A stretch of DNA of 64,000 nucleotides from Oscillospiraceae bacterium (lineage in GTDB: Bacteria; Bacillota; Clostridia; Oscillospirales; Oscillospiraceae). Shown here piece after piece: positions 1 through 54,357 of the stretch; the first letter of the stretch is position 1; each line of letters starts with the position of its first letter. The position numbers and the translations under genes are program-made. The DNA lies in NCBI GenBank assembly GCA_022846075.1, contig AP025582.1, forward strand, positions 2,976,001-3,040,000. Direction: 5' to 3'. The notes under the pieces are model-generated. The model ran no database searches and was not told where the DNA came from. It saw nothing but the letters and a program-made list of their open reading frames with translations.

Positions 1-3000
1 GGTCAGGCCCGACACCTGGGTGCCGTCCAGTTTGGCGGCCAGGGTGCCGTTGATGAGGTTGAAGCCCTCCTCCGTGATGATGGAGAAGCCCGCGCCGTCC
101 AGGGTGATGACGTCGTCCACACTGATGGTGTTTTCATAGCGCATGGGCTGGGACACGCCGTCCACCAGCTGGCGCAGGTTGAGGGTATAGTTGTTCTTGT
201 CGCTGCCCACCAGGACGGCCTGAGTGGCCTGGGCGCCGTTGCCGCCGCCCACCTGGAGGGACCCCAGCTGGTAGCTGCTGTTGTCGCCCCAGCTCCAGAC
301 GGTGCCGTCGCCCAGCAGCGCCGTGCTGTGGGCCTCACCGGCGGAGACGGAGAAAGCGGGCGTCACGATGCCCTGCTTGCCGCTGCCCGCGGTGAACTGG
401 GCATAGATGGGCCGCACGGCATAGCCGGTCACGTAGTTCTCGTTGCCCAGGCGGCCGGTCATGGCCTCGCCCCAGGTGAGGACCTTGCCCTCCCGGGTGA
501 CGGCCATCATGTGGTTCTTGCCCACGGAGACGTGGAGCACGTCGGTCTGGGTCAGATCCAGCGGCAGGTGGCCGTCCTCCACCGTATCGGTGGCCTTGAT
601 CTGAAGGGGCGTGGAGCTCTTGGACAGCTCCCCGCTCTCCAGCCCGATGCCCAGCTGGCCCCGGCTGTTGGAGCCCCAGGTCCACACGGTGCCGTCCTTG
701 CGGATGGCGGCGGTGTTGCTGGTTCCGGCGGACACCTGCCACACGTCGTCGATGGCGGCCCGGACGGGCACGATCTTCTGGGTGTGGTTGAAGCGCAGGC
801 CGGTGGTGTCCACGCTGACGCTGTCGGAGCTCTCGTGGCCGTTGCCCAGCTGCCCGGCGCCGTTGGCGCCCCAGGCAAAGACCGAGCCGTACCGGTCCAG
901 GGCCACCGCGTGGCCCTCCCCCGCCGCCACCGAGACGATGTCGGTGAGGTAGCGGGTCTCGTCGATATCCACGGCGTAGAACTCCTGCCCGCTCTGGAAG
1001 CCGGCCAGGACCCGCATGGGCGCCAGGGCGTTGGTCAGGCGCTCGGCGCCGTAGCCGAAGCTCTCGTTGGTGGTGTCGCCGGGGATCTGATAGGTGCGGT
1101 TGACGCCCAGGACGCCGTTTTCATTGCTGCCGAAGGTGTAGGCGTAGCCGTCCTTGTCGGCCAGCAGGGAGAACTTCTTGCCCGCGGCGATATCCACCAC
1201 GCCGTCGATGGGCTCCAGGTTCATATAGGCGCTGTAAGCGTCCACATACTGCTGGTAGGCCTCGGTCTTGGCGGGGATGCCGGCGTCGGTGGTAGTGTAC
1301 AGGTCGTCGGGACGGGCCTGGGCAAAGCCCTGCTTGCCCCGGATCACCAGGGTGGGCCGGAGCTTGTCGCCCACGCTGCCCACGCCCAGCTGGCCCACGT
1401 CGTTGCCGCCCCAGGCGTAGAGGTGCCCGTCGGCGGAGAGGGCCAGCACGTGGTCGTCGCCGGCGGCGATCTTCACGATGCCGGTGAGGTAGTCGCCCTT
1501 GGTATTGCCCGCGATGACGCCGTTGACATAGGGATCCGCGGCGGGCAGAGGCGCGCGCACCTGCACGGGGATGGCGGAATAGGTCACGCTGCCCTCGGCG
1601 GCGCCCGCGTTGGCGCTGACGCCGATGCCCAGCTGGCCGGCGTTGTTGGCGCCCCAGGTCCACACGGTGCCGTCGCTCATCAATCCCACAGTAAAGTTCC
1701 TGCCGGAGGCCACCATGGGCGTGGCCACCACGGAGGAGTCGTCCACATCGTCCGCGGGTGTCTCGATCTTGCGGTACTCCACCTCAATGCGCTTGAGGGC
1801 GTTGCCGAAGCGGTCGGAGATGGTGATGGTGGCCGACTCGAACCGCTGCTCGGGAGGCATGCTGACCGAGACGATCCAGTCGTTGGTGACCACGAAGTGG
1901 GCGGGATCGGAGGAGGTGATGGTGATGTCCTCCACCCGGTTCACCGTCTGGGAGTCGGTCTGGCTCAGGTTCAGATAGGCGTTGTTGTACTCGTACACGG
2001 CGGCCTTGTTCACCACAAGCACCTGGTCGTCGCCCAGGATGATCTTGTCGGGCAGCGGGTTGGAGGCGTTGAAGGCCAGGCCGGAGGCGGCCACGTCGTC
2101 CATGTCGGGGGTGAGGGCCATGGAGGAGAAGAGGCTGATGCCGTAATCCTCCTCGGCAAAGAGGCTGACGGTCTCCTCATACCCGATGGAGGCCATGTAG
2201 GCCACGGGGGCCATGCTGGTGGTGACGGCGCCGGTATTCAGGATATGGGCGTCGGCCACTTCCAGGTCGGTGTTGGCCCCCGCCACCAGCGGGGACAGGG
2301 TGTCGTTGAAGGTATAGCCGGTGCCCAGCTGGCCCCGGGTGTTGGTGCCCCAGGTGTAGATGGTGCCGTCGGCGGCCACCGCCGCGGAGTGGTAGGCCCC
2401 GGCGGACAAGGTGGTCCGCCCGCTCTGGACGGCGGCCCCCATGTCGTCACGGTTGACATAAATCGCAGGCAGCCGGCGCTGTTCCACGGCGGTGCCCCGG
2501 TCGAAGCGGGTGCCGTCGCCCAGCTGGCCGTCGCCGTTGTAGCCCCAGCCGTAGGTGGAGCCGTCGGCGGTGAGGGCCATGGTATGGTAGCTGCCGCTGG
2601 TGATGGAGACCACGCCGGTAAGCGGCTGCTTGTTGGGCAGCTGCACCGGGGCGGGCTTGCCGTAGTAGTTGGCCGCGGCGGCGTCCATGGAGATGTCCCG
2701 GCCCAGCTGGCCGTATGTGTTGTCGCCCCAGGTGTATACCTTCCCGTCGGCGCACAGCACACTGGCGGCGCTGGTCCCGGCGGCAAGGGCCACGGGAGCG
2801 GCGCCCAGATGCCCGGTGAGGGTGGCGGGATCCTGATAGGTGACGCCGCTGCCCCAGGCCAAGACTTGGCCGTCGGTGGTGATGGCCAGACCGATGGAGG
2901 GGCCGAAGGCCAGCTCCTTGAGGGTATAGCTGGTGGTCACGGTGTTGATCAGGCTGCCCTGGGCATTGTAAGTGCCGGTATACCGGTCCATGGTGGTAAG

Positions 3001-6000
3001 CCTGGGCTGGCTGGCGCTGCCGGAGCGGTGCATCCGCAGGGCGTCGTGCTGGCTGCCGGTCCGGCCCCCGGCCACCGTACCATTGGCCAGCAGGCCGGAG
3101 CCGGTGTCGCCGAAGGTGAACAGCACGGGATTGCCCGCGGCGTTGGCGCCCAGGACCGCGGAGACGTTGGCGCCCGCGTAGATCCGGGCGGCCCCCGCCA
3201 GATAGGTGACGCCGTCCGTGCCGGTGGCCTCGTTCATCTGGGGCCAGCCGGTGGTGGTGTTCACGGCATACCACACGTCGGCGTCGCCGGAGCGGACCCG
3301 GGTGGCGGTGGAGCGCAGGGTGCTGTCGCCGGTGCCCAGCTGGCCGAAGTCGTTGGCACCCCAAGCCCAGACAAAGCCGTTGGCGTCCAGCGCCAGGGCG
3401 TGGTTGGCCCCGGCGGCGACGGCCACCACATTCTGGAGCACCCGGGCGTTCCGGTAGCTCTCGGTGCGGATGACCTGCACGGGCACGTACTGGTAGTTGC
3501 CGGTGGTGCCGATGCCCAGCTGGCCGTAGGTGTTGTCGCCCCAGGCCCAGACGGTGCCGTCGGAGCGCAGGGCCACGGTGAAGTTGTTGCCGGAGACCAC
3601 CATGGGGGTGGTGTTAGTCCAGGTCGTGATCTGATCGCCCTCGGCGGCGGAGTTGACCCGGATGGTGACGCTGGCGGCCAGGCCGCTCACCAGGTCGGTG
3701 ACGGTGACCACGGCCACACCGAAGGAGCCCTTGGAGGGCCGCAGGGTGTAGGTGCCGTCGCCGTTGTCGGTGACCCCCACGATGGCGCTGTTGGAGGTGA
3801 CCTTGAAGTTGGGCGTGCCCAAAGCACCGCTCAGGCCGCCGGTGGCGCCGAACAGGTTCAGGCCCGTGCCGCTGCCGGCCACCAGCTGGAGGGCGGAAAG
3901 GTTGACATAATCATCATAGCCGTTCAGGTCGATGCCCAGGCTCTTGTCCACGTTCATCTCGCCGGTGTGAGCGGCGGTGGTCTCATCATAGCGGTACACG
4001 TCGGCCTGGAAGGTCAGGGTGCCCAGGGCGGAGGTGCCGTCGCCGCCCACCACGGTGGGCATGGTGACGTTGGCGATATCCGCGGGGCTGCCCACGCCCA
4101 GCTGTCCCCGGTCGTTGCGGCCGGAGGTGAGGACATAGCCGTCGTTGCGGAGCATGACCGCGTGGCCCACGCCGCCGGAGATGGCCCGCATGTCCTCCAG
4201 GTAGGTCAGCGTATCACCCTCGGCCACGTAGTTGACGGTGGCGGTGGACTTGGTGGCGGCGGAGCCGTCGCCCAGCTGGCCATAAGTGTTCTCGCCCCAG
4301 GTGTACACCTTGCCCTCGCCGGTGAAGGCGTAGGAGAAGGTCCCGCCGGCGGCCACGTCGGCGATGTGGCGGATGGCCTGGGAGGCGTCCATGGTGTTGG
4401 GGGTCTCCAGAACCACGGCGGGATAGAGGCTGTTTTCCGTGGTCCCGTTGCCCAGGCGGCCGAAGTAGTTGTAGCCGAAGGCGTAGACCTCGCCCTGGTC
4501 CTTCCCTTCCGCGCCGGTGTCTTCCACCAGCACCAGGGTATGGGCGTCGCCGGCGGCCACAGCCACCGCCCGGTGGTCGTGGCTGAAGGCGAACATACCG
4601 TCGGAGAGGATCTCTCTGGGCACATAGCTGTCATAGGTGGTGCCGGTGCCCAGCTGGCCGTCGGAGCCGTGGCCCCAGGTGTACACGGCACCGCCCGCGG
4701 TCAGGGCCACGCTGTGGCGGCCGCCCGCGGCGATCTGGACCACCTCATCCAGGTGGTAGGGGGCCGTCCGGCCCTCCAGCTGGCCCTGGCTGGTGGAGAA
4801 GCCGTAGACCTGGACGGGGACGGTGAGGAAGGTCTGGCCGCCGTGGGCGGTGTCGTTGCTCACGCCCGCCTGGCCGTGCTCATTGTTGCCCCAGGCCCAG
4901 ACCTGGCCCTTGCCGTCCAGGGCGAGGGAGTGGTCGTACCCGGCGGAGACCGCCACGACACCGGTCAGGTTCTCCACCATTTTGGGTGTGCTGACGCCAA
5001 CGGTGTCCCCGGTGCCCAGCTGGCCATACTCGTTATAGCCCCAGGCCCAGACGAAACCGTCTGTGTCTACCGCCAGGGCATGCATGCCGCCGGCGGCGAT
5101 ATACTTGATGTCGCGGGCGCTGCCCGTGTCGTCCAGGAACTCCACCTGGCCGTAGGCATAGCCCGGGTTGGCGGTCCGGCCCAGGACGCCGTTGGCCTCA
5201 GTGCCCCAGCTGTAAACCTTGCCGTCGCTGGCCAGCGCCAGGGTGAAGTCGTCACCGGCGGCCACCATGGGGGCCACGGCAGCGCCGGAGGCGGTGGTCA
5301 CGGCGGTGTCGGCCACCACGCTGACCTTCATCCGGCCCACCTCGGCCCCGCCGGCGCGCAGCACCAGATAGGCCGTACCGGTGGCCCCGGCCACGGCTTC
5401 CACCTGATAGGCGGCGCCGGTGTCGGTCACGGTGAGGAGCTCGGTATCCCCGCCCTGGACGGACACGGTGTAGCCGGTATGATCCGTGATGGTCTCCCGG
5501 CTGAGGGTGTTGGTCAGATCCAGCACGTAAGGAGCCCCATGGCTCACGTCGCCCAGGGTGAAGCTCTCGGTGTTCTTCATTACCCACTCGGGCACGGCGC
5601 TCAGATCCACGTCGGCGCCGTCCACCGTGATCCGGACGGGCTGCACGGCGGGCAGGCCGAAGGTGGCCTGGGTCAGGCTCCCCTTCTCCCGGCTGCTGTC
5701 GTCGGTGGCAAAGTCCTTGCCGCCCAGTTCGCCGTGGTCGTCGGCCCCGGCGCCGTAGACGGTGCCGTCAGCCATGACGATCATCAGGTGGCTGTCGCTG
5801 GCGCTGATCTGGGTGGCGCCGGAGAGGGCGCCGTACTGATAGCCCGCCTGGGCGGTCTCGCCGGCGGTCACCCTCTGATGGACGTCGGGCGCGTCGGAGG
5901 AGCCCACGGCGTACCAGCGGTAGGCCGAGCCGGTGACCGTGAGGAACCCGGCGGAGCCATCCATGGCGGAGATCTGGTTGATGCCCACGTAGTGCTCGTC

Positions 6001-9000
6001 GGCGTTTCCGTCGCCGTCGGTGTCCCGCTCCACCATATCCTCGGGAGCATAGACCCCCGGATCCACGGAGAAGTCCACCGCGGAGGCATAGAAGTGGGCG
6101 TTCTCCGCGGGTTCCGCGGCCGCCGCGGGAGCGGCGGACAGGGCGCCGTACTGGCCCCAGATCCAGGCCTTGCCGTCCTGATCCAGTGCCAGGGAGAAGT
6201 TCCCGCCGGCGGCCACGGACACGATACCGGTCAGCGGGGTGCCGTCGGCCTTGAGGACGGGGATGGTCTGCTGGTAGCTGGTCTTGGTCACGCCGGTGGC
6301 GCCGCCGTAGGGACGGCTGCCCAGCTGGCCGAAGGTGTTGTCGCCCAAGGCCCACACGGAGCCGTCCGCCTTCAGCAGGACGGTGTGGCGCTCTCCGGCG
6401 GCGATGTCGATGATGTTGTGGCTGTTGCTGACCATGGCTCGGGTAAAGAGGCCGTTCTTCCACTTGTCCCGGCCGTTCTGGCCATGGGCGGTGGAGCCCC
6501 AGACGTAGACGGTGCCGTCCACGGTGAGGGCCGCGGCATGGTCAACGTTGGCGGTGATCTTGACCACCTTGTCCACATATTCGTAGTGGTCCACAGGCGT
6601 CACGGTGTCCCCGGCGGCGATATCCGTGCCGTCGGCGGCCACGGCGATCACGTTGTCGGGAGAATAGGTGCCCTGGGGCAGGAAGCTGCCGTAGGTCTGG
6701 TCCTCCTTGCGCTCGGTGCCCAGGGCCTCATAGGCCCGGTTGCCGTCGGCGTCCAGCTGGAAGAGATGGTCCATCACCACGCGGGTGGGCGTCATCACGG
6801 CGGAGTTCATGCCCAGCGCGGCGTCGGCCGCGCCGGAGAACACGTTGTCGGTGGTCCCGCTGCCCAGTTCGCCCTTGTCGTTGACGCCCCAGCCCACTAC
6901 GGTGCCGTCGGCCTTCAGGGCCAGCATGTAGTCGTCGCCGATGGCGATCTGGGTCACGCCGGTGAGGTAGCCTGTGGCGTCGCCGCCGTCCCGCACCTGG
7001 GTGGGCGCGTAGATGACGGCCCCCTCGGCGGCGGGCTGGCCGGCCACGGTGCCGGAAGCCAGATGGTCGGCCTCCAGGCCGGTGTTGCGGCCCCAGGTCC
7101 AGACGGTGCCGTCCGCCCGCAGGGCGGCGGTGAAGTGGTCGCCCGCCAGGATCATGGGCATGGCCACGGTATGGATGGTTCCGCCGGTCACGCTGTTGGT
7201 GCCCAGGGGATCGGCGTGGAAGTTGACCTTGATCTGACCCAGGAGACGGCCGTCCAGCTCCACGGTGACGTAGGTGGAGGCCCCGGCGGTGGCGGCGCTC
7301 TGGACATGGGCCAGGCCCTTCACCGCCCCGTCCATGGTCAGCAGCTTCTCATTGAGGCTGCGGTAGACCAGCTTGTTCTTCTCCTCGCTGGTCAGGGACA
7401 TCCAGACGGCCTCCACCAGCACGTTGAAGGCGTCAACGTGCTCTTTCAGGATGCTGTCCAGCTTGATCTGGAAGCTCTGGTTCCGATCCAGGTAGAGATC
7501 CACCTGCATGGGATCGTGGATCACGTAGCTGCCCAGGGCGGAGGCGTCCAGATCCCCGGCGGCGGTGGTGACGCCGGCGTCGCCCACGACCACGTCCCGG
7601 AAGACCAGCCGGTCGAAGCTGCCCTCGGCCAGGGCCACCATGACGGGGGCGGCCACGCCCACGGAGGCGATGCCCACCGAGGTCTCGGCCTCCTCGATGC
7701 CCGCGCCCAGCTGTCCCTTGTCGTTGCGGCCCCAGGCCCAGAGGGTGCCGTCGGACTTCAGGATCATGGCGGCGGTGCCGGACAGGGCCAGGCCATAGGT
7801 CATCCGGCCCAGGCCGGTGCCGTCCTGCGCAATGCTGTTGTCGATCTCCCGCACGCCGGTGTTCCCGGCATACAGGCGGTAAATGACGTTATCGGTGGTG
7901 ACGCTGGTATCCCCGTCCGCCGTCTGGACCCCGCCGGTCTGGACCGTCCGGCCCCAGACGTAGGTGTTGCCGGCGGCGGTGATGGCGGCGCTCTGGGCGC
8001 CGTTGGCGGCCACGTTGACCGCCCGCTCGGCGGCAGTGGTCAGGCCGCCGTTAGCGCTGTCGTCAGCCAGGAGCTCCGCCATAACGGCGGAGGACTTGAC
8101 CGTCCGGCCGGAGGCGGCGGTGGTGCCGTCGCCCAGCTGGCCGTGGGCGTTGGAGCCCGTGGCGTAGATGGTGGCGGAGTTGTCGGCGGTACCGGCGCTG
8201 GCGGAGACCTTGCCGGCGCTCAGGAAGAGCAGGTGGCTGCCGTCGCCGGCCTTGTAGTTCCCGCCGGACAGTTCCACCACGTCCCGCAGGACGAAGCCGG
8301 TCTGCACCGCGTCGGAGGCGGACAGATCCGTCCCGGCGGTGATGTTGCCGCTGGTCAGGTCGGCGCCGTTGCGCACGGGCATGGGCGTCCGCTGGTCCAG
8401 GCCGCCGGAGTAGGTGTTCATATAGTTCTTCTGCACCGTGCCGGCGCCGTTGTTGACGGAGGCGTAGCTGCTGATGGCGGTGTTGTATTTGCCGTTGCCC
8501 TGATAGGCGCTTTGATACACGCCCTCAAAGTTGCTCTGGACCCGGTCCTCGTCGCCGATATCCATATTCCAGTCGCCGTCCATGGAGATGGCGCCCCAGG
8601 TATAGGCGGTGCCGTCGGCCAGGACCGCCGCGGAATAGCCGTAGCCGGCCTCCACCATGACGGCGTGGGCCAGGAGCTTTTCGGTGTCGGTGGCGTGGGC
8701 CTCCACGCAGGTATCGGGATTGACGCACCGGAGGTTCACCAATCCGCCCCGCTCCACGGCCACGGGAGCGGCGTAGTAGGCCTCCCGGGCGGCGGTGCCC
8801 ACCTGGCCGTAGGTGTTGTCGCCCCAGGCCAGGACGGTGCCGTCGGCCCGCAGGGCCAGGGCGTGGCTGCCGCCGGCGGAGATGGCCGCCACGGCGGGCT
8901 CTGCGGCGGTGGCGCGGTAGGTGACGGGGGCGGGATAGGTCACATTGACGTTCAGCTTGTCGGCGGGGGTGCCCAGGCCCAGCTGGCCCCGGTCGTTGCG

Positions 9001-39000: not shown

Positions 39001-42000
39001 GTCAGTGCCCATGGCGTACCCGGCGCCCAGCTGGCCAAACTCATTGCTGCCCCAGGCCCAGACGGTCCCGTCGCCCAACTGGGCCAGGGAGAAGTCGGCG
39101 CCCGCGGCCAAATGGGTGGCGTTTTTGAAGTCGCCCTTGCCGTTCAGGCCCTTGACCACCACGGCGCCCACCTTTTCCAGCCGGTCGTTCTGGCCCAGCT
39201 GGCCCAGGGCGTTGCTGCCCGCGGCCCAGATGATCCGCTCGCCCTCGGCGTTGACGCCCAGAGCCAGGGCATGGGAACCGCCGGCGGCCACTTCGGTGAC
39301 GCCGGTGATCTCAACATTGATAGTGTGGGTCTCCCCGTCCACCACTTCCGCCACCTGGCGGGTGAGCAGGGCCACGGCGGGGACAGGAGCGGTCACCGTT
39401 GTGGCGGGATAGGGCACCTCGACAATATTGCCGCAAGTGCTGTTCTGGCACTTGTAGATCTTATACTCCGGATTGGCGGCGTTGCGGTCGGCGGACCACT
39501 TGACGGCGTCCTCATAGCCGGTCCCGGCCCAGACGTTGGTCTTGTCGTCGTAGATCAGCTCAAAGGCGTTCTTGCCGCAGACCGTACAGTAAGGCACGTC
39601 GTTCTTGGGGCTCCAGGTCAGAGTACAGTTGGAGCAGAACCAGTCCTCGGTAGGCACCGCGATCTGGGTATCGGTCCAGGTCACAAGGACACAGCGGAAG
39701 CTGTCGGTCTCAGGATTGTGATAAAGGGCATAGTACTGCGTCCCCTCATCGCTCTCCAGCTCGCCGCCGGTGGCGGCGTCCCGGAACTGGGAGGGGATAT
39801 AGCGCGCTTCATTGCTGCCCTCTTCCGGTGTAAAGGACATATCCTTGTAATACGCGATCAGGGCGCCGGAGGCGCTGGCAAAATCGCTGTATTCATAATA
39901 AGTGACGCCGTTCTCGTCCTGATGGGCCGTCAGGGTTCCGGGGGCGGGAGCCGCCTCCTCCGTGGCCTGCTTGACGTGCTCGGTCTTGCTAGCCCGGCTG
40001 ATGTTGTCGCTGCCGCAGCGGGGGCACGTAACGGGGTCGTGGTACTCCTCCTCGGAGCCGCCGCCCTCCTCTTCCTCATGGAACTTGGTCACGTTCTCCA
40101 GCTCGCCCAGGACCCACACCTTACCGCCGGAGACCACCAGGGTAAAGGTGTCGCCGGCGGCCACGGCGGTTGCGGCTGTAAAGGGATTCCCCTGGTCATC
40201 AAGAACCTGGACGGGGAAGGCCCGCTCCACGAAGGTGCCGTCGCCCAGCTGGCCGTGGCAGTTGTCGCCCCAGGCCCAAACGGAGCCGTCGGATTTCAAC
40301 GCCACGGTGTGGCTGGCCCCCACGGAGACCTGGGGCTCCACAAACGCGCCCCCGGCGGGCTGCACCAGGACGCGGAGCATCGCCGTCACGCCCGTGGGCT
40401 TGTGGCGGATCATGAGATAGGTCTCCCCGTATTTGATGTTGTCGGGATCCAGCCGGTTGGGCGCGGCAAAGGCGCTGAACGCGGCGGGGGTGGTGGTGCC
40501 CGCGGGATCGGGAGCCAGGATGCTCTCGTCCATGGAGACCACTTCAAAATCACCGGCGTTATTGGCGGTGACCGTTTCCAGGTTCAGCAGGTTCAGGCCG
40601 AAGGTGTTCTCCACCGACAGCTTGGTCAGGTCGATCATCAGGTAATCGTTCTCGCCCTCGATCGTCTGCTCCAGGCCCAGGGAGACGGAGGTGCCGCCAT
40701 AGCCGGGGACAGCGTACTGCCCCACGTAGCCCCAGGCCTCGATGGTGCGGTAGGTGCGCTCTCCCACCAGTACGGGAACGACGCGCGCCTCCTCTGTGAA
40801 GTCGCCGATCTGGCCCCGGTCATTCTGACCGGCGCCGTAGACGAGGCCGGTATCCCGGCTCACCAAAATATGTTGTTCGCCAACGGCGAACACGTCCACC
40901 TGCTGCATGTAGTCCGCCTCTTGGGCGCCTGCGGCATGGTTGACGGTATTGTCTTTGTCAAAGGGGACGCCCGCCACGGCGGCGGTCCCGGGACGGTTCA
41001 CGCCCAGGTTGTCCCCGCTGTTGCCGCCGTAAGCCAGCAGCACCCGGTCTCCGCTGCGCTCGGTGAGGGCCAAAGTGCCCCGATAGCCCGCGGCGATCTG
41101 GCGCACGCTGTCGGCGGTGGCGCTCATGCGGCTGGCCCGGCCGATGGTGCCCTGGGCGGTGCTGTCATCCAGGCTCACCTGCTTGAAGGCGTTGCTGCCC
41201 CAGCCGTAGAGGACCCCGGCGCCGTTGGCGCCCAGGCCGGCGCTGGTATCAAAGCGCAGTGCGGCGGCGTGGCCGCTGCCGGCGGCCAGATCAATGACCT
41301 GGTCTATGTGCTCGGCGTTCAGATTGTCCGTGGTGCCGGCCAGCTGCACGGGGGCGATACGGTACTGGGCGGTGCTGTCGTCGCCCAACTGCTTCTCCCG
41401 GTCGTCGCCCCAAGCGAAGGCGGTGCCGTTGTAGCGCACGGCATAGGAGCTGTCCCCGCCCGCCGCGATACGGATGATGTTGTCCATCCGGGCGCTGGCG
41501 CTGGGGCTGCCGCCCTTGGTCACCGGGTGGGCCACCGTCAGATAGAGGTTGGAGAGATCGGCCCCCTCCACAGAGGGATCGATCCCGGTGGCGTCCCGGT
41601 TGATGCCGGCCTGGCCCCGGCTGTTGTCGCCCCAGGCGTACACAAAGCCGCTCTGGGTCAGCGCCAGGGCGTGGTTGGCCCCCGCGGCGATGGCGGTCAC
41701 GGGGTCCGTTTCATTATAATATTGGTATGCGCCTGTGGTTTCGTCAAAGTACTTTTTGCTGAGAATGTTGGTGCCCAGAGGGGTTCCATCCTCCAGGACC
41801 ACCAGAGCCCACTCGGGGGAATAGTCGTAAGTCACGGTCTCCGTGACCATGGTCGTGCCCTCCGGGGTGGTGACCTCGTGGGTCACTTCCACCTCGAAGG
41901 AGCGGGCATTGCGGCCCAGCTGGCCATGACTGGCCAGACCGGTGGCCCACACCCGTCCAAAATTATCCAGCGCAAGGGTAAAGTAGTCGCCGGCGGCGAT

Positions 42001-45000
42001 AGCCGTAAAGCTGATTTCCTTGTCGCCATTCATGATGCCGTTCAGGGTGCGCACAGGAGTGTTTTGATACGCGTTCAAAGGATCCGCGGACGAGAAGCCC
42101 AGCTGTCCGAAGCTGTTGTCGCCCCAGACATAGACTTCGCCTCTGGCGGTCAGGGCAGCTGAGTGCTTCTTGCCCGCCGCCAGCATGGGCGAGGCCGAAA
42201 TGGCATCATCTCCCGTGCTGTAATCCTGCTGATAGCGCACAAAGACGGGTATGGCGACAAAGTTCTGCCTCTGGCTCCCGTCGGAGAGGGTTTCCGAAGA
42301 GGCGATCACCACCGTGGCAGCCCCCAGTTTCCCGGTGGGGGCGAAGGTGGCCAGATGGGGATTGCCCACCGTGCCGTCCCCGGAGAGATAGGGGGCGGTC
42401 AAAATGGCGGGATCGGAGCTGTACGCTTTGAGGTTCACGCTGTCCACCTGGCTCTGGGTACCGTCGGTGAGCAGGTTGAACCCGGCCAGGTATTGATAGT
42501 AAATGTTGTCCAGGTCGAATACCAGCACCTCTCCCCGGTCCATAATCACCTGAGAGGGGTTCTCCTCGCCCATGGGCTTGCTTTGCGTAAAGTGCTCTTG
42601 ATTTACACCATCTGTCAGCCAATAGTCGCCGCTGACCAGGACCTTGGACTCCCGGTCGCCGGCCATAACGGGGGCATAGGCGTCCACCACGGAGCTGTTG
42701 CCCAGCTGGCCGCCGGCGTTGCCGCCCCAGTTCCACACGTAGCCGTCGCCCCGGATCACGCCCATGTGGGAAGAGCCCGCGGCCAGATAGATCACGTTGG
42801 AGAGGGCTGGCTCGCTGGCGCTGGCGTTGGAGCTGTCGCCCTTCGCCACCAGCGCGGGGATGTCCGTCCAGGCGGTAACGGCGTTGGCCTCGTCCCGGCC
42901 CAGCTCACCATGGAGGTTGGAGCCCCAGGAGTAGACCTGCCGGCCGCTCACGGCGGCGGAGCTGTTTCCGCCGGCGGCCACGGCAGTGGCCCCAGTCACG
43001 TTGGACTTCACCGGTGCTGTAAAGGCGATTTCGTTGCCAGGAGTGGGACGCCCCTCCTCCGGGGTGCCGGCGGGATAGACCGCGCTCACACCGGCGGAGT
43101 TGCCGCCCTGGCCATAGGTGCCGTCGCCCCAAGAGTAGACCAGGCCGGTGGGCAGCAGAGCCATAGAGTGGCTGCCGCCCGCGCTGATGGCCAGCACGTT
43201 GTTCAGCCGTCCGTCGTCCAGACCGCCTTGGCCGTCGGCGCTCACATCGTAAGCGCCCTTCTTCACCTGGACGGCCACCCGGTAATTGAGGACATTCCCG
43301 GTGCCCAGCTGGCCCTTACGGTTATCGCCCCAGCCGAACACGGCGCCGTCGGAGCGGAGGGCCAGGGTATGGCCGTCCCCGGCGGAGATGGCGATGATGT
43401 GATTCAGATAGACGCCCTTGGCCGCGTCGTCGCCCTGGCGCACCTGGGTGGGGAGGGTCACGTCACAGTTATAGATAGGCTGGGTGAGGGTGGCCTCGCT
43501 GGGGAGCATCTCGCCGGCGACAATCTTGTCCTGCTCCTCCTCATAGGCGGCCAGCTCCGCCAGGTACATATCGTAATCGTAGAACTCCATCAGGGTGGGG
43601 ATGTGCTTGTTGTCCTTCACATCATTAAAGAGGTACACATAGGGGAGCGCGCCGGTCAGGGCGCTGTCCGCGCCGAACTGATAGCGGCGGACCAGGCCGG
43701 TGTAGCCCACGCCCAGCTGGCCCTTGTCATTGTAGCCGAAGCTCCAGACAGTCCCCTTGGACGTGAGCAGCACACTATAACCCTTTCCGGCGGCGGCCTT
43801 GATGACGCCATCCGGCAAGGATTGTACCTTTACAGCTTTATTTTCGCCGATCACATCCAGGGTGCCCAGGCCCAACTGGCCGTGCTCGTTGGAGCCCCAG
43901 GACCAAACCGTGCCGTCGGCGGCCACGGCCAAAGCATGGTCGCCGCCCGCGGCGATAGCCACGATCCCGGTGAGCACCTGCTCACTGCCGTCGGTGGCGT
44001 TGAGGTAAACCACGTTCACCGGAGTGTCGCTGTACTCCTGGGTCAGGTTGGCGCCCAGCTGGCCATGCTTGTTGGAGCCCCAGGTCCACACGGTTCCGTC
44101 GGACTTGAGGGCCACGCTGAAGTCGCCGCCCAGGGAGAGGGCGGGAGTGGTCTGGATCTGGGTGCCGGCGGCCCCGCCGGTCTTGACCGTGTCCACCTTC
44201 ACCACGAACATGGCGGACAGCTTGTTGCTCCCGGTGGCGGAGTCGGTGTTGTAGAGACGGATGGTCGCCTCGCCGGAGCCCACCGCGTTGAGCAGGATGC
44301 TGCCGGAGTTAGTGGTCACCGTCACGACGGAGGGGTCGGAGGTCTGGACCTGGAACACGCCGCTGCTCACGGAATAGGTCTTGGGGTCCTGGGTGTACTT
44401 CATAGCCCGGAAGTTGCTGAAGTAGTGCTCCACCGTGCCGCTGATGTCCACCTGGTCGCCGGGGCGCAGCTCCACCAGATTGCCCAGCTCACTGCTGGCG
44501 GAACCGGCGGCATAGCTGCTGGCCACCGTGTAGGAGGAAGCGGCGATCCGCCCGCTGGCCCGCCCGGTGGTGGAGGCGTAACTATTATTATAGGTAGCGA
44601 TGCTGGGGACCTCCGCCAGAGAGTCGGCATCGTCCTCCGCGGAAACAGTGCTCTCGGAGATCTCCGCAGGCGCGGCGCTCTCCTCTTCCTGAGGGGCCGC
44701 CTCCTCCTGAGCCGCCGCGGGAGTCTCCTCCGCGGAAGCGTCGGCCATGGCCACGGTTCCCTCATCGGCGGGAGCCTCGTTCTCATCCAGGAGAGCAGTG
44801 GAGGCCGCGGCGGGGACAAATTCCACAGTGACGTTCATGGCCCCGTTCAGGCTGGCCACTTGGAACACGGCATTCACCGTATTGTCGTACCACTTCGCCG
44901 TATCCCCGGGATCGGCGGGAGAAGCCGTAAAGGTAATCGCCTTGCCGGCAGGAAGGATCACGCTGCCGCTGGTAAGGCCGGTCCCGATCACGCCGGAAAC

Positions 45001-48000
45001 CAGGGCGATCTCCAGGGTGCCGCTGCCGGCGGTGACGGAGTAATCCACAGTATAGTAGAGGGCGCTGCCGGTGGTGGGCTGGGTATCGTCGGTGCTGACC
45101 ACCAAGGCCTGTTCCTTCACGACGCCGGTGAGGCTGTCGTACAGAGTCCAGCTGCCCACGGGCAGGGTGATCTGGCAGACGCCGTCAGAATCGTCGTCCA
45201 CCACAGGATAGTAGTTGCCCACCGTCACGCCGTCCATCCCCAGGGAGAAGGTCCGCCCGTCGGCCTGCGTATCGGTCCAGAGCGCGGCCCCACTGTCCAG
45301 GTTCAGTTCCAGCGCGCAGTCCCGGTAGAGAATATCCAGACTGTTGTCCAGGCCGTTCCCAACCGTAATGCTGTTTACCTTTACACCATTGTCGCAGATA
45401 TCGTAGGTACCGGCCGCCGCGCTGCCGGTATAGACGCCGGTGTTCCCGGCGGCATCGGTGAGGGTGGCGGCGGTGACGCCCGTATCGGTGACCAGCGTGA
45501 TCACGTGGCCCAGGGCGGAGGCGTCGGTCCAAGGGGTGGCGGCGCTGTTGTGCTTGAGGTTCACCGTCACCTCGTAGGTGTCGTCATAGCCCATGACCTT
45601 GCCGTTGACCGTGGCGATCCAGGCCTCGCTGTTGCCGGAGTCCGCCACATCGTTGTCCCGCTGGCCCAGAGAGAACTCGCCCAGCTGGCCCCAGTCGTTG
45701 GCGCCCCAAGCATACACGTTGCCCACTTCATCCAAAGCCCCGGAGAACCCGTCGCCGGCGGACACCCGGTTGACGGCCCGGCCCTCCAGCGCGGTGATTC
45801 TGCCGATCTCCCAATCGCTGCGGTTGCCGGTCACGAGAGAGCTATCCTGGCCCAGCTGGCCACGGCCGTTGTCGCCGAAGCCATAGACATTGCTGGAGGC
45901 CAGGGTGCCGTCCTCATTATAATGTCCCCGGACGATAATGGTATGGTTTTTGCCGGCGGCAATGGCCACGCCGTTGGTGATGACGTTGGTCCCCTCTTTC
46001 AGGTCCATCGCCGCGCTGTATTTCAGCACGCTGGGATCGTTGACCGGTCCCAGCTGGCCGTAAGTATTGTCGCCGAAGGCACGAATGCCGTAGGTGGTGG
46101 CCCCATCGTTGGGCCGGATCATCACGAGGGTGTGGTAGTAGCCCGCGGCCACATCCACCACGCCGCCCATGACCGTGTTGCCCGCGATGGTGGCCAGGCC
46201 CAGGCTGGGCATATACTCGTCGCCGGTGGTGACGCCCAGCTGGCCCCGGGTATTGTCGCCCCAGGTCATCAGGGCGGAGACATAGCTGCCGTAGCTGCCG
46301 TTGCTGCCCAGCGCCATGGAGTGCCAGCCGCCGGCAAAGACCTTTTGGGCCCCTTCCAGGTAGCCGCTGTCGGAGTTGGTCTTATCCACCACCTGGGCGG
46401 GATAGTTCCTGCACCGGTCCACCATCTCCACGCCGGCGCCGAAGTCCTCGCCCTGGCCCAGCTGGCCACGCTGGCCGTCGCCCCAGGAATAGACGAACTG
46501 GTCCGCCTTGCCCAGATAGGCCAGAGAGTGGAACCCGCCGGCGGCGATGCTGGTGGCGCCCACCAGGTAAGTGCCGCCCAGGGTCAGGTTGCCCGCGTGG
46601 ACCTGAGCGGGGGCGGAGCGGTCGTTGAAATCCTCCAGGCCCAGCTGGCCACGGTCGTTCCGGCCCCAGGCGTACACCGTGCCGTCACTGGTCCGGGCCA
46701 GCACATGGTAGAAGCCCACAGAGATCTCTTCGATCAGGTTCAGCTTGTCGGTCTGGCCGTCCACACCCTTCACCTGAATGGGGTAAGTTGTAAAGGGAAT
46801 TTCCTTGCCAGAGGCACCCATGCCCAGCTGGCCATAGGTGTTGTCGCCCCAGGCCCACACCGAGCCGTCGGTCTTCAGGGCCACGGTAAAGCCCTCGCCG
46901 CTCCGGATGCAGGCGTCGGTAAAGTTATCGGAGTCCTTGACCTCCACGGCGAACCCGCCGGAGTAGATAAAGGCGTCGGGATCGGCCAGTACCTCGGTCA
47001 CCGTGATGTCGCTGGTGCCGAAGCGGCTGTCGCCCTCGCCGGGGGTGGGGGTCAGCTTCCCGTTGTAGGGTGCCGTGTCCCCAGCCATCTGGCTGGCGGT
47101 GATAATAATGGGGTCGCTGGAATCGTAGGTGAACTCATCCGGTTCCCCCACGTTGTAAGGTACGGCACGATCCCGTTCCCACAGGTTGAAACCAACGCTG
47201 TAATAACGGGTGATGCCCTCTTTGAAGATAGTGATATGCTGACGGTCCGTGATGGACAGGCTGGCCAAAAGCTGGGTCTCGGGAATGGCCAGGGCATTGG
47301 GATCGGTCTCCTGATAGACGCCCAGCTGATTGGCGTAGCGGGCGGAAAGGGTGGTGGAGAGCACCGCGCCGGTATCCTCGTCCACGTCGTCGGTGTAGAC
47401 CCACACCTTATTGAAAATGAGATAGCGGTCGATATCGTCGCCGACCCGGTTGATGATACCCACGTTGTTCTGATTATCAAAGGCCTTGCCCAGGCCCAGC
47501 TGCTTGCTGGCGTTGTGTCCCGTGGCGTTGACCACGCCGCCTTCAAATACGATGACGGAGAAGTCGGCGCCGGTGGAAACCTCGTAGACACCGGGCTCGT
47601 GATCCTTGTCCAGATACCCGTTTACCGTCAGGTCAGAGTTTTCCGCGGCCCACACCAGCTCAGGCACCGCCTGGCTGGGGGTGCCGCCGGCGCCGGAGGT
47701 CATGGCGGTGGTGCCGAAGCCCAGCTGGCCGTTGGAGTCGGCGCCCCAGGCAAAGAGGGCGCCCTTGTCGGTGCGGCCCAGGGTAAACTCGTAACCGGCG
47801 GAGACCCCCACCATGCGGCCCTCCAGCAGGGCGGAGGATTTCCAGCTCACCTGAGTGGGGGAGGGCTTGTTCACCTGGTCGTTGCAGCCCACCTCGCCGT
47901 GGCTGTTGGTGCCCCAGCCCCAGGTCACGGGGGTGGCGAACTCCTCGCTGCTGCCGTTTTTGAAGTTGACGCTCAGCGCGGCGCCGTGGCCGTAAGAGGC

Positions 48001-50529
48001 CTGGCCCCACTTGCCCACGCCGCCGTTGACGTCCAGGTCCACCACGCCGCTCAGGCCGCTGAGAACCGTGGCGGCCAAAACGGGCTTGTTGGCGTTGGTA
48101 TCGCCCAGGCCCAGCTGGCCGCTGCGGTTGTCGCCCCAGCTGTACACGTTGCCGTTCCAGTCCATGGCGCTGGCAAAGTCCGCGCCCAGAGAAACGGAGA
48201 TGATGTTTTTCAGGTTCGTCAGGTTCCCGCTGGCATCCTCGGTCTGCACCAGGACAGGCAGACCCGCCATCCGGTCAGAGGCGCTGCCGCTGGTCCAGGG
48301 ATCGGCGGGGTCCTCCCCCTGTCCCAGCTGGCCCATGCTGTCGTCGCCCCAGGCATAGACCCGGCCGTCAGCCGTGACCGCCATAGAAACATAGCCCCCG
48401 GCGGCGATGGAGACGATATTGGTCAGGTACCCCTCGCTGTTGGTGTCCAGGCCGTTTTCCGGGCCCCGGACCTTAACAGGATAGTTGGCGTTGGTGATGT
48501 TGTTCTGGCCCAGCTGGCCCCGGCTGTTGTCGCCCCAGACCCAGACGGTGCCGTCGGCGGAAAGAGCCATGGAGTGCTGATAGCCCGCGGCCACCGACAC
48601 GATATTGCTCAGCGGGGTCAGCGCGCCGCCGGCTTTGGTGCGGTTGATGGTCATGGGAGTATTGATATCGGAGGTGGCGCTGCCGCTGATGGTGATGCTG
48701 GTCAGCTGTTTGCGGCTGTTCCAGCCCCAGCCCTGGACCGTGCCGTCGGAGAGGAGAGCCAGAGTGTGGGCGTGGCCGGAGGCCACCATGGACACCGCGT
48801 ATTTGGCGTCGGGGTTGCTGGGGTCGGCGCTGCTCTCGGTGTATCTCCCCCGGACCTCCAGCTCCATGACGCCGAAGGAGGGCATACCGCCGATGTAGCT
48901 TCGGGCGTAAACTCTGGTCCGCCCCTCACCCACGGCCCGGATCTTCGTGGTGCCGTCCACCACCTGGGCCACCCGCCGGTCCAGCACCACGATGTTGCCG
49001 CTGTTGGGCGCGGCGCCGATGAGGGCACCCAGATAGCTGCCCACGTCCAACTCCTGGCCCGCCACCATGCGCAGGTACCCCTGCACCGGATTCGATGCAG
49101 GGTTGTTCAGAGTGGGACCGTTGAAGGCGGTCTCGATGTCGATGTTGGTCACGGCGGAGCTGCCGGAACTGCTGGAGAAGGTGCTAGGCGTTTCCGGCGC
49201 GGCGGTGTTCCCGTCGTTCTCATTCGTGCCGGCCTCGTTTTCCCCCTCCGGAGAGTTCTCGTCCCCGGGGGCGGGGTCACCGTTCTCAGTGGTATTGGCC
49301 CCCGTCTGGGCCTCCCCCACTCCGGGGAGATAGACGGCGGAGCCATATGTAGTGATGCTCTCGTTGGATTTTAGAGAGACGCGGAACATGGCCTCCAGGA
49401 ACTCCGGCCCTCCGGCCGCGCCTGTCCCAGCGGTTTCCTCACTGCTGGGGGAAGGCTCCGCGCTGGCGGTGGGTGTCTCGCCCTCTTCGGCCTCCGGCTG
49501 GGGGGCCATGGGGACTTCGCCCTCTTCAAGCTCCACCTCGCCGCTCTCGGCGGGAGGCGCGCTGACCGCGGCAGTCTCCTCAGGGGCAGAACTGACCGCA
49601 GGGGCCGCGGACTCGGCGGCCTCCGGCGCGGCGGAAGGGGCTGCCCCCTCTTCCTGGCCCAGCAGGTTGAAGCTGCCGGCCTCGGTGGAGGGAGACGGGG
49701 AGGCGGGAGCGGCGGAGCTCTGGGGCTCCTCCCCGCCAAAGACGGACAGGTCGTAATCAGAGTTCTCCTGGGTCAGGCCCTCGCTGTACAGCTGGCGGAG
49801 GAACTCCTGGATCTCAGGGGACTCGTCGTAAATGCTCTTGGAACCGGTGGTGTCCTCCGTGTTGGCCCCATTGAGAAGCTGCTGGGCCAGATCCGCATCG
49901 GAGAGGACCCCGGCGCTGGGCGCCTGGGTGGGCTTCTCCCCGGTCCAGGTCACCTTGACCCGGCAGGAGATCATGGGGGCGGTGGTCTCGCTGGCGTCGT
50001 AGATGGTCCAGCTCACCGGCTCAAAGGAGAGCTCGTCGCTGTAATCCTCCTCGCCGAACATGGCCTCCCACACGAACTGCTCCTTCAGCTTGAGCTTGGC
50101 CTCCGCCTGGGCGCGCAGGCTCAGGCGCCTAGGCTCGTCCAGGGTCGCCATATACTTGCGCTGGTCCCGGCTGAGATACTCCACCCGCTCCAGATTCAGG
50201 GAGGCGGGGAAAAAGGCGGCATACTCCTCTATGCTCAACAGCCCAAGGTACTGGATGTCGGTCATGTAGGCGGTGACTTCCGTCTCCTCATAGCCCTGGG
50301 TAAAGCCGATGCTGGTTTTATCCAGCACCAGGGGCATAGGAATCTCAGCCCCCTCCAGATCGGTCTTGGAGGCGGCTGTCTCAACGTCTGCCTGATTCCG
50401 GGTCTTGGCCTGCTGAGCGGCCTCTATCACGGCCGCCGCGCCAGGCCCGCTGATCCCCGTCAGCAGGGAGAGCGTCATAGATGCAGTTAAGATTCCCGAC
50501 ACGATGCGTGTCGGCAAGTGATCCAGCAT
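1..50529 (-). CDS. Giant secreted RCC1-repeat protein (24 tandem beta-propellers), 3' end outside window
   Basis: The frame opens at ATG 50529 and is still open at base 1, so at least 16,843 residues are encoded (very roughly 1.7 MDa). The first and last codons are in the same frame, and the repeat pattern reads without interruption between them. Residues 1 to about 33 form a signal peptide: an Arg, then a hydrophobic stretch ending GPGAAA. A unique domain follows (to about 250), then a Pro/Ala/Ser/Glu-rich linker (about 260-445) and an Ig-like segment. After that come 24 modules of seven RCC1 blades plus an Ig-like linker. RCC1 blades form seven-bladed propellers that bind proteins or other ligands; export suggests a cell-surface or secreted binding role. 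No catalytic domain was recognised. Alternative starts GTG 50538 and TTG 50532 are possible because no strong Shine-Dalgarno decides the start; an in-frame TGA at 50541 limits extension. The anchor or C-terminal domain is unseen. The specific function is unknown. Confidence 0.93.
5983..6033 (-). other. Calcium-type Asp-rich loop in module 21
   Basis: The frame reads [16 protein letters not shown]. The DxDxDGxxD spacing is that of EF-hand-like loops in thrombospondin type 3 and dockerin repeats, which bind calcium. It sits in the loop between blades 5 and 6 of module 21. Confidence 0.6.
9658..9693 (-). other. Calcium-type Asp-rich loop in the linker before module 20
   Basis: The frame reads [11 protein letters not shown], almost the same as the loop near 6.0 kb. 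It lies in a longer than usual linker (9245-10075) that also carries a Pro/Tyr-rich stretch ([16 protein letters not shown]). Confidence 0.6.
11341..11427 (-). other. Trp/Tyr/His-rich loop in module 19
   Basis: The loop after blade 2 of module 19 reads [19 protein letters not shown], an extreme aromatic run. A second aromatic/His loop of the same module, near 11620-11690 ([21 protein letters not shown]), follows blade 1. Aromatic clusters on propeller faces often bind carbohydrate or peptide ligands; that role here is inference. Confidence 0.6.
19570..20890 (-). other. Helical and leucine-rich-like insertion inside propeller module 15
   Basis: After blade 1 (ending GFLGVDPN) about 440 residues interrupt the propeller. 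The first two thirds are Ala/Leu-rich and helical, with spacing like FIVAR or three-helix surface repeats (for example [20 protein letters not shown] and [19 protein letters not shown]). The last third has a BspA-type leucine-rich pattern ([18 protein letters not shown], then [15 protein letters not shown]). Blades 2-7 then resume, so the propeller can still close with the insert as a protruding arm. Confidence 0.65.
22024..22130 (-). other. Trp/Tyr/His-rich loop in module 14
   Basis: After blade 5 of module 14 the frame reads [19 protein letters not shown] and then [14 protein letters not shown]. It is similar in character to the aromatic loops of module 19, but in a different blade position. 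Confidence 0.6.
22912..22995 (-). other. Second zinc-ribbon insertion, propeller module 14
   Basis: Between blades 1 and 2 of module 14 the frame encodes CPACG (22981-22995), then CHE, then CPNCG (22912-22926). This is a compact two-knuckle zinc ribbon of about 30 residues. The fifth Cys and a His next to the first knuckle could be extra ligands. Confidence 0.7.
39430..40026 (-). other. Multi-zinc-ribbon insertion in propeller module 5
   Basis: Blade 2 of module 5 is interrupted by about 220 residues carrying four Cys pairs: CPRC (40012-40026), CSNC (39625-39636), CTVC (39574-39588) and CQNSTC (39430-39450). The pairs sit in zinc-ribbon contexts ([15 protein letters not shown]). Zinc-ribbon knuckles bind Zn through four Cys, so two sites could form. 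An acidic run ([14 protein letters not shown]) precedes the first pair. Cys is otherwise very rare in this protein. Confidence 0.7.
44142..45673 (-). other. Expanded inter-module region with beta domains and acidic linker
   Basis: This linker is about 510 residues, three times the usual size, and lies between modules 2 and 3. Two related beta segments come first (near [17 protein letters not shown] and [16 protein letters not shown]), each followed by a strand pair like GTYDICDNG or GSWTLYDS. They resemble Cna-B-like or other surface-protein repeats. An Ala/Glu-rich acidic stretch (about 44800-44610) follows, then a normal Ig-like segment ending SAMFVVKVD before module 3. It may act as a hinge separating the first two propellers from the rest. 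The domain names are inference. Confidence 0.55.
48830..50529 (-). other. N-terminal region of the giant protein: signal peptide, unique domain, low-complexity linker, first Ig-like domain
   Basis: This covers residues 1 to about 567. After the signal peptide comes a domain of about 210 residues with charged helical stretches (for example around [19 protein letters not shown]). I do not recognise it. From about 49740 to 49200 the protein is rich in Pro, Ala, Ser and Glu and probably disordered; it would act as a spacer between the N-terminal domain and the propeller array. From about 49160 to 48830 a beta-rich segment containing ELDVGSYLG and [19 protein letters not shown] resembles the Ig-like linkers found between modules. 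Confidence 0.6.
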
Positions 50530-50571
50530 CAAATCCACTCACTTTTCTACGAAAAATACACACGAATTATT

Positions 50572-50594
50572 CATAGGGGCAGTCTGCCCCTATG
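50572..50594. promoter_or_regulatory. Perfect 23-bp dyad in the giant gene's 5' UTR (candidate operator or RNA hairpin)
   Basis: Arms CATAGGGGCAG and CTGCCCCTATG are perfect inverted repeats around a single T. The dyad begins about 9 bases after the predicted transcription start and ends 43 bases before the ATG. It is GC-rich in an AT-rich gap. It may be an operator for a dimeric regulator or a 5' hairpin that protects a very long mRNA. No U-tract follows, so it is not an obvious terminator. Confidence 0.65.
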
Positions 50595-50609
50595 CCATTC
50601 ATGCCCATA

Positions 50610-50638
50610 ATTATGTCACTAGTTGACGTAAAAATCAA
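50610..50638 (-). promoter_or_regulatory. Sigma-A type promoter of the giant gene
   Basis: On the minus strand -35 TTGATT (50633-50638) and -10 CATAAT (50610-50615) are separated by exactly 17 bases. This predicts a start near 50603 and a 5' UTR of about 75 bases. It is the best match in the AT-rich gap. Confidence 0.6.
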
Positions 50639-52322: not shown

Positions 52323-52325
52323 CCT

Positions 52326-54101: not shown

Positions 54102-54141
54102 GTTCCCTCTCTCCATCCATCGCAGTTTCCAGTTTCGCTCT

Positions 54142-54147
54142 ATTATA
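54142..54147 (-). promoter_or_regulatory. -10 element of the ABC-F operon promoter
   Basis: A perfect TATAAT on the minus strand, 41 bases before the ATG. The region 17 bases upstream (TTTTCT) is a weak -35. Confidence 0.5.
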
Positions 54148-54208
54148 CACAAAATCCCCGCCGGAGAAAAGCCCATGGAGGAAATGCCGCCGGAGGCAAA
54201 AATTCCTC

Positions 54209-54238: not shown

Positions 54239-54267
54239 ATCAGCGTATCTAAAATGTAAAAATTGAT

Positions 54268-54325: not shown

Positions 54326-54357
54326 TGCAGGATAACATCAAAAAGGAGGTACTGTAT

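Follow-up and report, generated by a model that had tools for sequence, protein, structure and literature searches.

One gene, which occupies most of the window analysed here (a stretch of 64,000 nucleotides, G000:C1:2976001-3040000, within the single-contig, 3.23-Mb genome of an Oscillospiraceae bacterium, G000) and continues beyond it, encodes a chain of 34,110 residues in which 34 RCC1 propellers are followed by a long stalk. This protein (referred to below as 'the giant') is a real and long-kept structure, and nearly all of its propellers are found in the same order in genomes of two genera. An initial annotation, made from the letters of the window, had described a giant RCC1 array; that observation is confirmed, for a protein larger than first described, and the accompanying interpretation (a very long extracellular fibre displaying '24 different binding discs') is partly supported. 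The giant is probably surface-bound.

Extent of the gene and its codon usage

The frame runs on the minus strand from position 50538 to base 1 of the window with zero stops. Two starts are possible, a GTG at 50538 and an in-frame ATG at 50529; counted from the ATG, the window holds the 16,843 codons without an end that had been reported, and the whole interval (1..50538) encodes the N-terminal 16,846 codons of the giant. When the frame is followed to the left in the complete genome, as the initial annotation had proposed, it ends at G000:C1:2924206 after 34,110 codons, so that the window contains the first half of the gene only. The predicted product has a mass of 3.60 MDa and a pI of 4.45, and cysteine is nearly absent from it (52 of 34,110 residues).

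The codons TTA, CTA and TCA account for 10 of the 4,812 leucine and serine codons of the giant, versus 30 of 1,663 in 13 further genes from this region. The corresponding genes of two other genomes follow this trend: G305 (7 of 5,437, versus 5 of 808 in three genes) and G015 (111 of 4,551, versus 38 of 535 in three genes). Such depletion would be consistent with selection for translation. A codon-position test for purifying selection was uninformative, because, at the divergence and GC content in question, third positions do not clearly evolve faster.

The propeller array: blades, modules and spacers

Blades were counted with a profile that was grown over five iterations from 32 regular-expression seeds taken from the giant itself, and that was scored on 400-residue tiles at a domain E<=0.05. 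It finds 225 RCC1 blades in the giant and 0 in the reversed protein; the same control, applied to the seven pieces of the other giants described below, gave one blade match (in G013b). Because this profile was trained on the protein that it scores, independent support comes from Pfam: RCC1_2 gives at least 147 matches in the same genome, all of them inside the giant frame and above the curated cut-off (among the best 150 of 268 candidates), and module M16, the sole whole module scanned with Pfam, matches RCC1 in seven stretches (E 7e-75), RCC1_2 in seven stretches and WD40_RLD (E 2e-99).

With module limits placed by eye from the spacing of blade matches, the blades form 34 modules (M1 to M34, aa ~580-23,815), 24 of which lie inside the window, in agreement with the number counted there by eye. 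Seven blades are scored in 23 of the 34 modules, six in nine and five in two, and none scores more than seven. Within the window, where exactly seven blades in each of 24 modules (168 in total) had been claimed, 164 are recovered: 20 modules score seven, four (M5, M11, M12 and M21) score six, and none scores eight. The first of the seven-bladed modules, all of which are encoded on the minus strand, are M1 (47461..48795, aa 582-1026), M2 (45664..46902, aa 1213-1625), M3 (42667..44142, aa 2133-2624) and M4 (40765..42186, aa 2785-3258). After M5 (38404..40332, aa 3403-4045) come M6 (36628..37947, aa 4198-4637), M7 (34873..36213, aa 4776-5222), M8 (32962..34386, aa 5385-5859), M9 (31024..32436, aa 6035-6505) and M10 (29236..30507, aa 6678-7101). 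The adjacent six-bladed modules M11 (27283..28614, aa 7309-7752) and M12 (25477..26847, aa 7898-8354) are followed by a run of eight that score seven: M13 (23566..24969, aa 8524-8991), M14 (21568..23142, aa 9133-9657), M15 (18175..20985, aa 9852-10788), M16 (16375..17727, aa 10938-11388), M17 (14521..15945, aa 11532-12006), M18 (12298..13854, aa 12229-12747), M19 (10039..11799, aa 12914-13500) and M20 (7684..9243, aa 13766-14285). M21 (5716..7155, aa 14462-14941) again scores six, and M22 (4078..5268, aa 15091-15487), M23 (2293..3603, aa 15646-16082) and M24 (262..1716, aa 16275-16759) score seven; M25 to M34 and the stalk come next, outside the window.

The places of the missing blades were scored against 95 control windows taken from the stalk, the best of which reached 3.4 bits. 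In the window, candidates above this maximum are present in M12 (8.7 bits), M11 (6.5 bits) and M21 (4.5 bits); that of M5 (1.3 bits) falls below it, and seven blades are scored for M5 in each of the other six giants. Beyond the window, M27 (5.3 bits) and M32 (4.1 bits) exceed the control, and M31 (at most 3.4 bits), M28 (2.4), M29 (0.1) and M26 (-3.0) do not. Among the modules that can be delimited in the other giants, seven blades are scored in 19 of 32 (G009), 20 of 32 (G006), 21 of 34 (G015), 20 of 32 (G013), 20 of 34 (G002) and 21 of 32 (G305), and 29 of the 34 modules reach seven in at least one of the seven giants. Thus, the seven-bladed RCC1 propeller is supported as the usual unit of the array, with exactly seven blades in every module unproven.

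Several apparent counts above seven in the other giants were set aside: in M1 of G009 and in M16 of G009 and G013 one blade is split by an insert, in M7 of G013 the first blade of M8 had stayed unmapped, and in M10 of G006 the surplus is attributed, by inference, to the unmapped blades of M9.

Neighbouring propellers mostly lie about 110-190 residues apart, a distance that includes a putative Ig-like ('BIG2-like') spacer. A profile built from 23 of the 33 gaps matched 31 of them and no other place in the giant (the reversed control gave 2). The Ig-like character of the spacers, which the initial annotation had proposed, is weakly indicated, by a Big_2 match in one and an aBig_2 match in one of 12 spacers, and by a beta-rich spacer in the model described next.

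A structure was predicted with AlphaFold2 for M16 and its spacer from an alignment of 16 window modules (pLDDT 75.7, pTM 0.76). A Foldseek search with this model places UVR8 first (4dnw, E 1.3e-32, TM 0.87 on the target), and then the HERC2, RPGR and RCC1 propellers. M16, the sole well-modelled module of the 34, is therefore predicted to be a canonical closed RCC1 propeller, and the seven-bladed unit that the initial annotation had invoked for this family is borne out by the profile, by Pfam and by the model alike.

Two inserts bear on the claim that the count of seven survives such interruptions. M15 carries about 450-470 alanine-rich residues after its first blade and retains seven blades at threshold. 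M5 carries a cysteine-rich insert of about 270 residues after its second blade, with weak, zinc-ribbon-like Pfam matches below cut-off, and regains the seventh blade only with the help of a model: as a whole that model is of low quality (pLDDT 56.5, with minima in the insert and the spacer), and our reading of its strand list gives seven three-strand blades, including one at the place of the missing blade (aa 3881-3915, block pLDDT 93, 90, 87 and 72). Further cysteine-rich, zinc-ribbon-like inserts were noticed by eye at aa ~9180 and ~22800, in addition to that at aa 3446-3745. Alanine-rich inserts, helix-like by eye, lie at aa ~9900-10200 (in M15) and ~20130-20640 (in M29); long gaps occur at the M15 place in all six other giants and at the M29 place in five of the six, the frame of G002 being interrupted there.

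Upstream of the first propeller, aa 1-600 (48739..50538, minus strand) comprise a signal-peptide-like start, an N-terminal domain, an acidic linker rich in proline, serine and glutamate, and a BIG2-like stretch (by eye). The signal peptide of the initial annotation is kept as 'signal-peptide-like', on inspection. The conserved N-terminal domain (A1, about aa 64-260) matched no Pfam family.

Conservation of the array across two genera

RCC1_2 is found in 22 of 40 genomes, the one studied here included. Five genomes of the same genus (G002, G006, G009, G013 and G015) each have at least 146-149 RCC1_2 matches, like G000. Their giant frames comprise 37,716 codons in G009, 32,936 in G006 (where about 100 consecutive Ns lie within the frame, close to its end) and 32,702 in G015, and are interrupted by one in-frame stop each in G013 (8,036 and 30,029 codons) and G002 (18,501 and 13,329 codons). 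The stops, which may be errors or real losses, lie at G013:C1:158205/158206 and G002:C2:67429/67430. The A1 domain is present in 8 of the 16 genomes of the genus, in two of them (G012 and G005) on frames of 9,514 and 1,858 codons in fragmented assemblies. Among 394 sampled genomes of the order, it was found in two: G000 and G305, a member of another genus with a frame of 40,694 codons.

The order of the modules was tested with pairs of blades that are reciprocal best matches, chosen irrespective of order, against 1,000 shuffles per genome. The longest increasing runs comprise 105 of 112 such pairs in G009, 88 of 97 in G006, 102 of 109 in G015, 120 of 123 in G013, 116 of 124 in G002 and 108 of 113 in G305, versus means of 16-19 and a maximum of 25 for shuffled pairs. 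The pairs represent 32, 31, 30, 32, 33 and 31 of the 34 modules in the same six giants, respectively, with 29 modules represented in all six. When the alignment is made to preserve order, first blades can be placed for 33 or 34 of the 34 modules in each giant; since the pair lists of such alignments keep order by construction, they are no test of it, and the order-free pairs are the test.

Sequence comparisons between and within giants point to the whole propeller as the unit that has been kept. The best paralogue of a blade lies at the same blade position for 67 of 161 blades, versus 23 expected; first blades, whose segments take in part of the spacer upstream, account for 22 of the 67, and only 6, 2 and 5 of 23 come from positions 5, 6 and 7. 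Blade cores are 54% identical between orthologues (n=1,181 pairs) versus 40% between same-position paralogues (n=833 sampled). For single blades, the orthologue beats the best paralogue of the same giant in 117 of 198 pairs with G009, 96 of 192 with G006, 110 of 199 with G015, 140 of 196 with G013 and 120 of 201 with G305. As many single blades show no orthologue advantage, the orthology of a single blade is weak and rests on order. Taken together, these results indicate that whole propellers, and not single blades, act as the units of the array, in keeping with the initial suggestion that selection acts on whole propellers, and that the array predates the split of the two genera. The order kept in six other giants speaks strongly against an assembly error or a recent expansion of the array; recent tandem duplication and homogenising recombination are not supported, the orthologous order being dominant.

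The segment between M2 and M3 divides the giants into two groups: in G000, G009, G013 and G305 it exceeds that of G006, G015 and G002 by about 360-940 residues.

Stalk, C-terminal loops and adjoining genes

The stalk (aa ~23,850-33,600, some 9,700 residues) is without RCC1 blades. Its second half matches Cadherin-like PF12733 in four stretches (E 1e-26), and the stalk is read as made, at least in part, of cadherin-like domains with a beta-sandwich fold. A stalk profile finds about 32 places over both halves, which is a lower bound (the final 33 matches include two at one place); its last three rounds gave 31-33 matches, with 1-2 each in the reversed control and among the RCC1 modules, and the number of domains is uncertain.

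The initial annotation had proposed a search for an anchor downstream, and candidate parts of one are found there: dockerin-like loops, a gene 2 with a cohesin-like domain and a gene 3 with SLH repeats, which together would make up a putative anchor. Two dockerin-like calcium (EF-like) loops, identified with a pattern of our own, are present at the C-terminus in six of the seven giants, 392-676 residues apart. In the giant studied here they fall within the C-terminal ~510 residues (L062:110-1759, outside the window), about 460 residues apart, and the stretch between them is partly low-complexity; by a simple measure, a linker rich in proline, glutamate, serine and threonine separates the loops in five of the six two-loop giants, G305 being the exception. 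G305 has a third loop match near its C-terminal pair, and G006, whose end crosses Ns, has a single loop. In the four two-loop giants scanned whole, the pattern has no match outside the last 1,200 residues; for G013 and G002 the scan covered the C-terminal piece. The two separated loops could pair with each other inside one molecule or across different molecules.

On the same strand, the giant is followed by gene 2 (1,623 codons) and then by gene 3 (3,330 codons). Both genes also adjoin the giant in G009, G006, G002 and G305; the contig of G015 stops after gene 2, and gene 2 of G013 is apparently shortened or broken. A profile of the N-terminus of gene 2, searched against the PDB, has cellulosomal cohesins as its top three matches (E 5e-4, 5e-4 and 0.29). 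With a profile built from five genus genomes having the giant and from G305, gene 2 is found in seven of the eight genus genomes that have the N-terminus of the giant and in none of the eight without it. Gene 3 ends in SLH repeats (E 5e-24, two stretches). Six of the 16 genus genomes have a match to its A5 region, including one (G014, a weak match) that is without the giant. The genome as a whole has 107 SLH matches.

Proposed surface display and competing explanations

A secreted, wall-held and adhesive chain of propellers is the best explanation of these observations, and one in which our confidence is a little better than even; the frame, the repeats with their order and conservation, the predicted fold of one module and the domains of the neighbouring genes are what the analysis shows, and the export, anchoring partners, orientation and binding of the chain are what we infer. 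One gene would yield one secreted polypeptide of about 34,100 residues, exported probably via Sec, as the signal-peptide-like start suggests. The C-terminal loops would probably be gripped by the cohesin-like N-terminal domain of the gene 2 protein, and this assembly would in turn probably be held by the SLH protein of gene 3, so that the stalk would stand on the cell wall with the propellers outermost. An extracellular fibre is suggested in this way by the stalk, the dockerin-like loops and the SLH neighbour. The propellers might then act as an 'adhesive brush', making many-copy, low-specificity contacts with gut surfaces, glycans or other cells through fast-changing loops. A more elaborate proposal is offered tentatively, as somewhat less than an even prospect: a 'counted' array of 34 usually seven-bladed propellers, with number and order fixed before the genera split, a relay of split dockerin, cohesin-like and SLH parts, position-specific roles, and an appendage of about half a micrometre made from one polypeptide (our estimate from domain sizes is a chain of half a micrometre or more).

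A number of results weigh against this reading, or against parts of it. In the loop-tip columns of the blades (10, 11, 27, 29, 30 and 37-42), identity between orthologues is as low as about 17-27%, which gives no indication of specific and conserved binding; a conserved ligand for each disc is not supported, and the '24 different binding discs' of the initial annotation give way to 34 discs with poorly kept loop tips. By profile, M11, M21, M26, M29 and M32 reach at most six blades in all seven giants, and M26 yields no candidate for a seventh; some discs may be six-bladed or contain strongly diverged blades. M9 has no order-free match in any of the six other giants; outside G000 its first blade is mapped by the order-preserving alignment in G015 and G002 only, the sole other giants where it can be delimited, and it has four blades in each. 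The N-terminus of the giant is missing from 8 of the 16 genus genomes (five of which are less than 90% complete), and the protein is therefore not essential. The GC content at third codon positions of the giant (0.908) is similar to that of its neighbours, and TTA, CTA and TCA are wholly absent from three short genes among the 13 used for comparison.

The proposed anchor meets objections of its own. Pfam offers no match for the stalk's first half. The dockerin match of the giant is to one loop, at 20.7 bits versus a Pfam cut-off of 22.9, and the spacing of the loops is far from that of the normal, adjacent dockerin repeats (a domain of ~57 residues); for these reasons they are named dockerin-like and not dockerin. 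The cohesin-like call comes from one profile search, in which the best match covers ~43 residues and T-cell receptor chains follow at E 0.34, and Pfam cohesin (PF00963) was found in none of six genomes. The A5 region of gene 3 has no PDB match.

Four other explanations may be set beside the adhesive chain. In the first, the giant would form a passive coat, a thick protective or spacing layer round the cell in which the propellers serve as protease-resistant filler without specific ligands. The variation of the loop tips around a kept structural core, the largely kept size and module order over two genera and the wealth of SLH repeats in the genome would all suit such a role, and a protein of 39,678 residues from Velamenicoccus (V. 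archaeovorus) has been proposed as a coat (in the part of PMC10066038 consulted). But pure filler needs no set of some 34 non-identical modules in kept order, for which simple repeats would be enough, and blade cores resemble their orthologues more closely than their same-position paralogues. We rate a coat as unlikely, at perhaps one chance in several.

The chain might instead be a polyprotein that is cut after export into separate discs, which would act as soluble binders, for example as inhibitors like BLIP-II (itself a secreted protein of the RCC1 fold). The modules do appear self-contained, and a proposal that giant proteins may be processed is cited in the consulted text of PMC13104272. 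No cleavage motif was noticed in the spacers, though none was searched for; a stalk and a C-terminal anchor make little sense for freed discs, and the order of the array is kept, all of which renders this improbable.

A scaffold like that of the cellulosome, with propellers or stalk carrying or docking other secreted enzymes, is brought to mind by the dockerin-like and cohesin-like parts of the operon, and by a cellulosomal protein of C. thermocellum that is listed with five RCC1 repeats (table in PMC6083626). We consider it very improbable, given that Pfam cohesin is absent from the six genomes with the giant, that Dockerin_1 matches are few (10 at E<=0.1 over four of those six genomes), and that no enzyme family scores above cut-off in the scanned parts of the giant.

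That the gene is an assembly error, or is decaying and unexpressed, is scarcely credible and was rejected, for although two of the seven giants (G013 and G002) each have an in-frame stop, the frame of G006 crosses Ns, and the six named records with an A1 domain are metagenome assemblies labelled Oscillospiraceae or Eubacteriales, the genome studied here is one contig, five separate assemblies carry unbroken frames of 32,702-40,694 codons with the same module order, and rare codons are depleted.

Relation to described giant proteins and RCC1 systems

The initial annotation knew of no described system of this kind, which must be qualified. A survey (PMC13104272, Microbiome Datahub, 2026, which cites a 2023 preprint by West-Roberts) reports 19 proteins of more than 40,000 residues, which come from Omnitrophota and from Oscillospiraceae of the human, mouse and rabbit gut. 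These Oscillospiraceae proteins of ~40,000 residues are probably the same proteins as the giant. The consulted portion of that source gives no domain architecture, and 'RCC1' occurs 0 times in its main text. The giants of Omnitrophota (V. archaeovorus LiM, 39,678 residues; consulted text of PMC10066038) share with the one here their size class, a presumed surface location and, in one case, dockerin domains, but belong to another phylum, and most of those of Velamenicoccia are described as poorly conserved and as having few annotated domains; 'RCC1' occurs 0 times in the text consulted, whereas in the giant studied here a single fold recurs 34 times and its modules keep their order. Another paper that treats huge proteins (PMC11573180) makes no mention of RCC1 in the text consulted, and PMC3482391 was rejected as a precedent because RCC1 appears there, in the text consulted, only within a strain name. 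The searches made, which covered papers and not preprints, listed no description of an RCC1 giant in bacteria or of a 34-propeller architecture. Such proteins are thus known to exist; as far as those searches reach, what appears to be new is the architecture with its conservation, and the operon.

Canonical RCC1 propellers (those of UVR8, RCC1 and RPGR, and the RLDs of HERC2) have the seven-bladed fold in common with the M16 model, but occur as one to three propellers per protein (three in HERC2), in contrast to 34 in one probably extracellular chain. RCC1_2 is present in 92 of 398 sampled genomes of the phylum, G000 included, and the blade family is shared with phylum RCC1 proteins of ordinary size: among the matches listed, frames are of 267-3,914 residues, with the exceptions of the giant itself (34,110) and of a frame of 12,856 codons in a genome of another family of the same phylum (G737:C10). 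A genome of the same order (G025) has 123 RCC1_2 matches, on frames of 503-2,052 codons among the matches listed. The blade family is also shared with the cellulosomal protein Cthe_0258, annotated (RCC1)5 in a table of PMC6083626, to judge from which it may carry a dockerin. The anchoring of cellulosomes uses the same three kinds of part (cohesin, dockerin and SLH) that are found in the C-terminus of the giant and the next two genes; unlike there, the cohesin-like domain here lies below Pfam detection, the loops are split by about 390-680 residues, and the scanned parts of the giant hold no enzyme family above cut-off.

Flanking sequence and antisense features

An AT-rich leader upstream of the giant's start (50539..50960, minus strand) contains a promoter-like TTGATT-17-CATAAT at 50638-50610; the promoter scan gave 3 sites versus 0.9 expected, which is weak and barely above chance. 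Further upstream (51006-61482, minus strand) lie genes for SprT-like and YedF-like proteins, an ABC-F ATPase, two M20 peptidases and a LysR regulator, none of which is tied to the giant. A secA-like gene, identified from sequence ends alone, lies upstream of the giant at G000:C1:3053175-3055946, G002:C2:3509-6451 and G305:C3:30235-32997. More large surface-type frames occur downstream, in the region of G000:C1:2888878, one of them of 5,036 codons with SLH.

A long antisense open frame of 5,831 residues lies opposite the giant at 11137-28632 (plus strand), and others reach 20,417 residues in G305 and 15,905 in G013; they are long because TTA, CTA and TCA codons are almost absent from the giant. 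A tRNA-Gly called by ARAGORN at 41244-41342 (plus strand), antisense within the giant gene, is probably spurious.

Implications

A lineage of gut commensals thereby has a protein that approaches titin in size and whose architecture is simple enough to be counted. Bacterial genes of giant size often resist interpretation. In this case every disc is expected to adopt a fold that is already well understood, so that tests of how a megadalton protein binds, is secreted and folds can proceed one part at a time. That some 34 non-identical discs have stayed in order across genera also poses the question of what prevents such an array from growing, shrinking or becoming homogenised.

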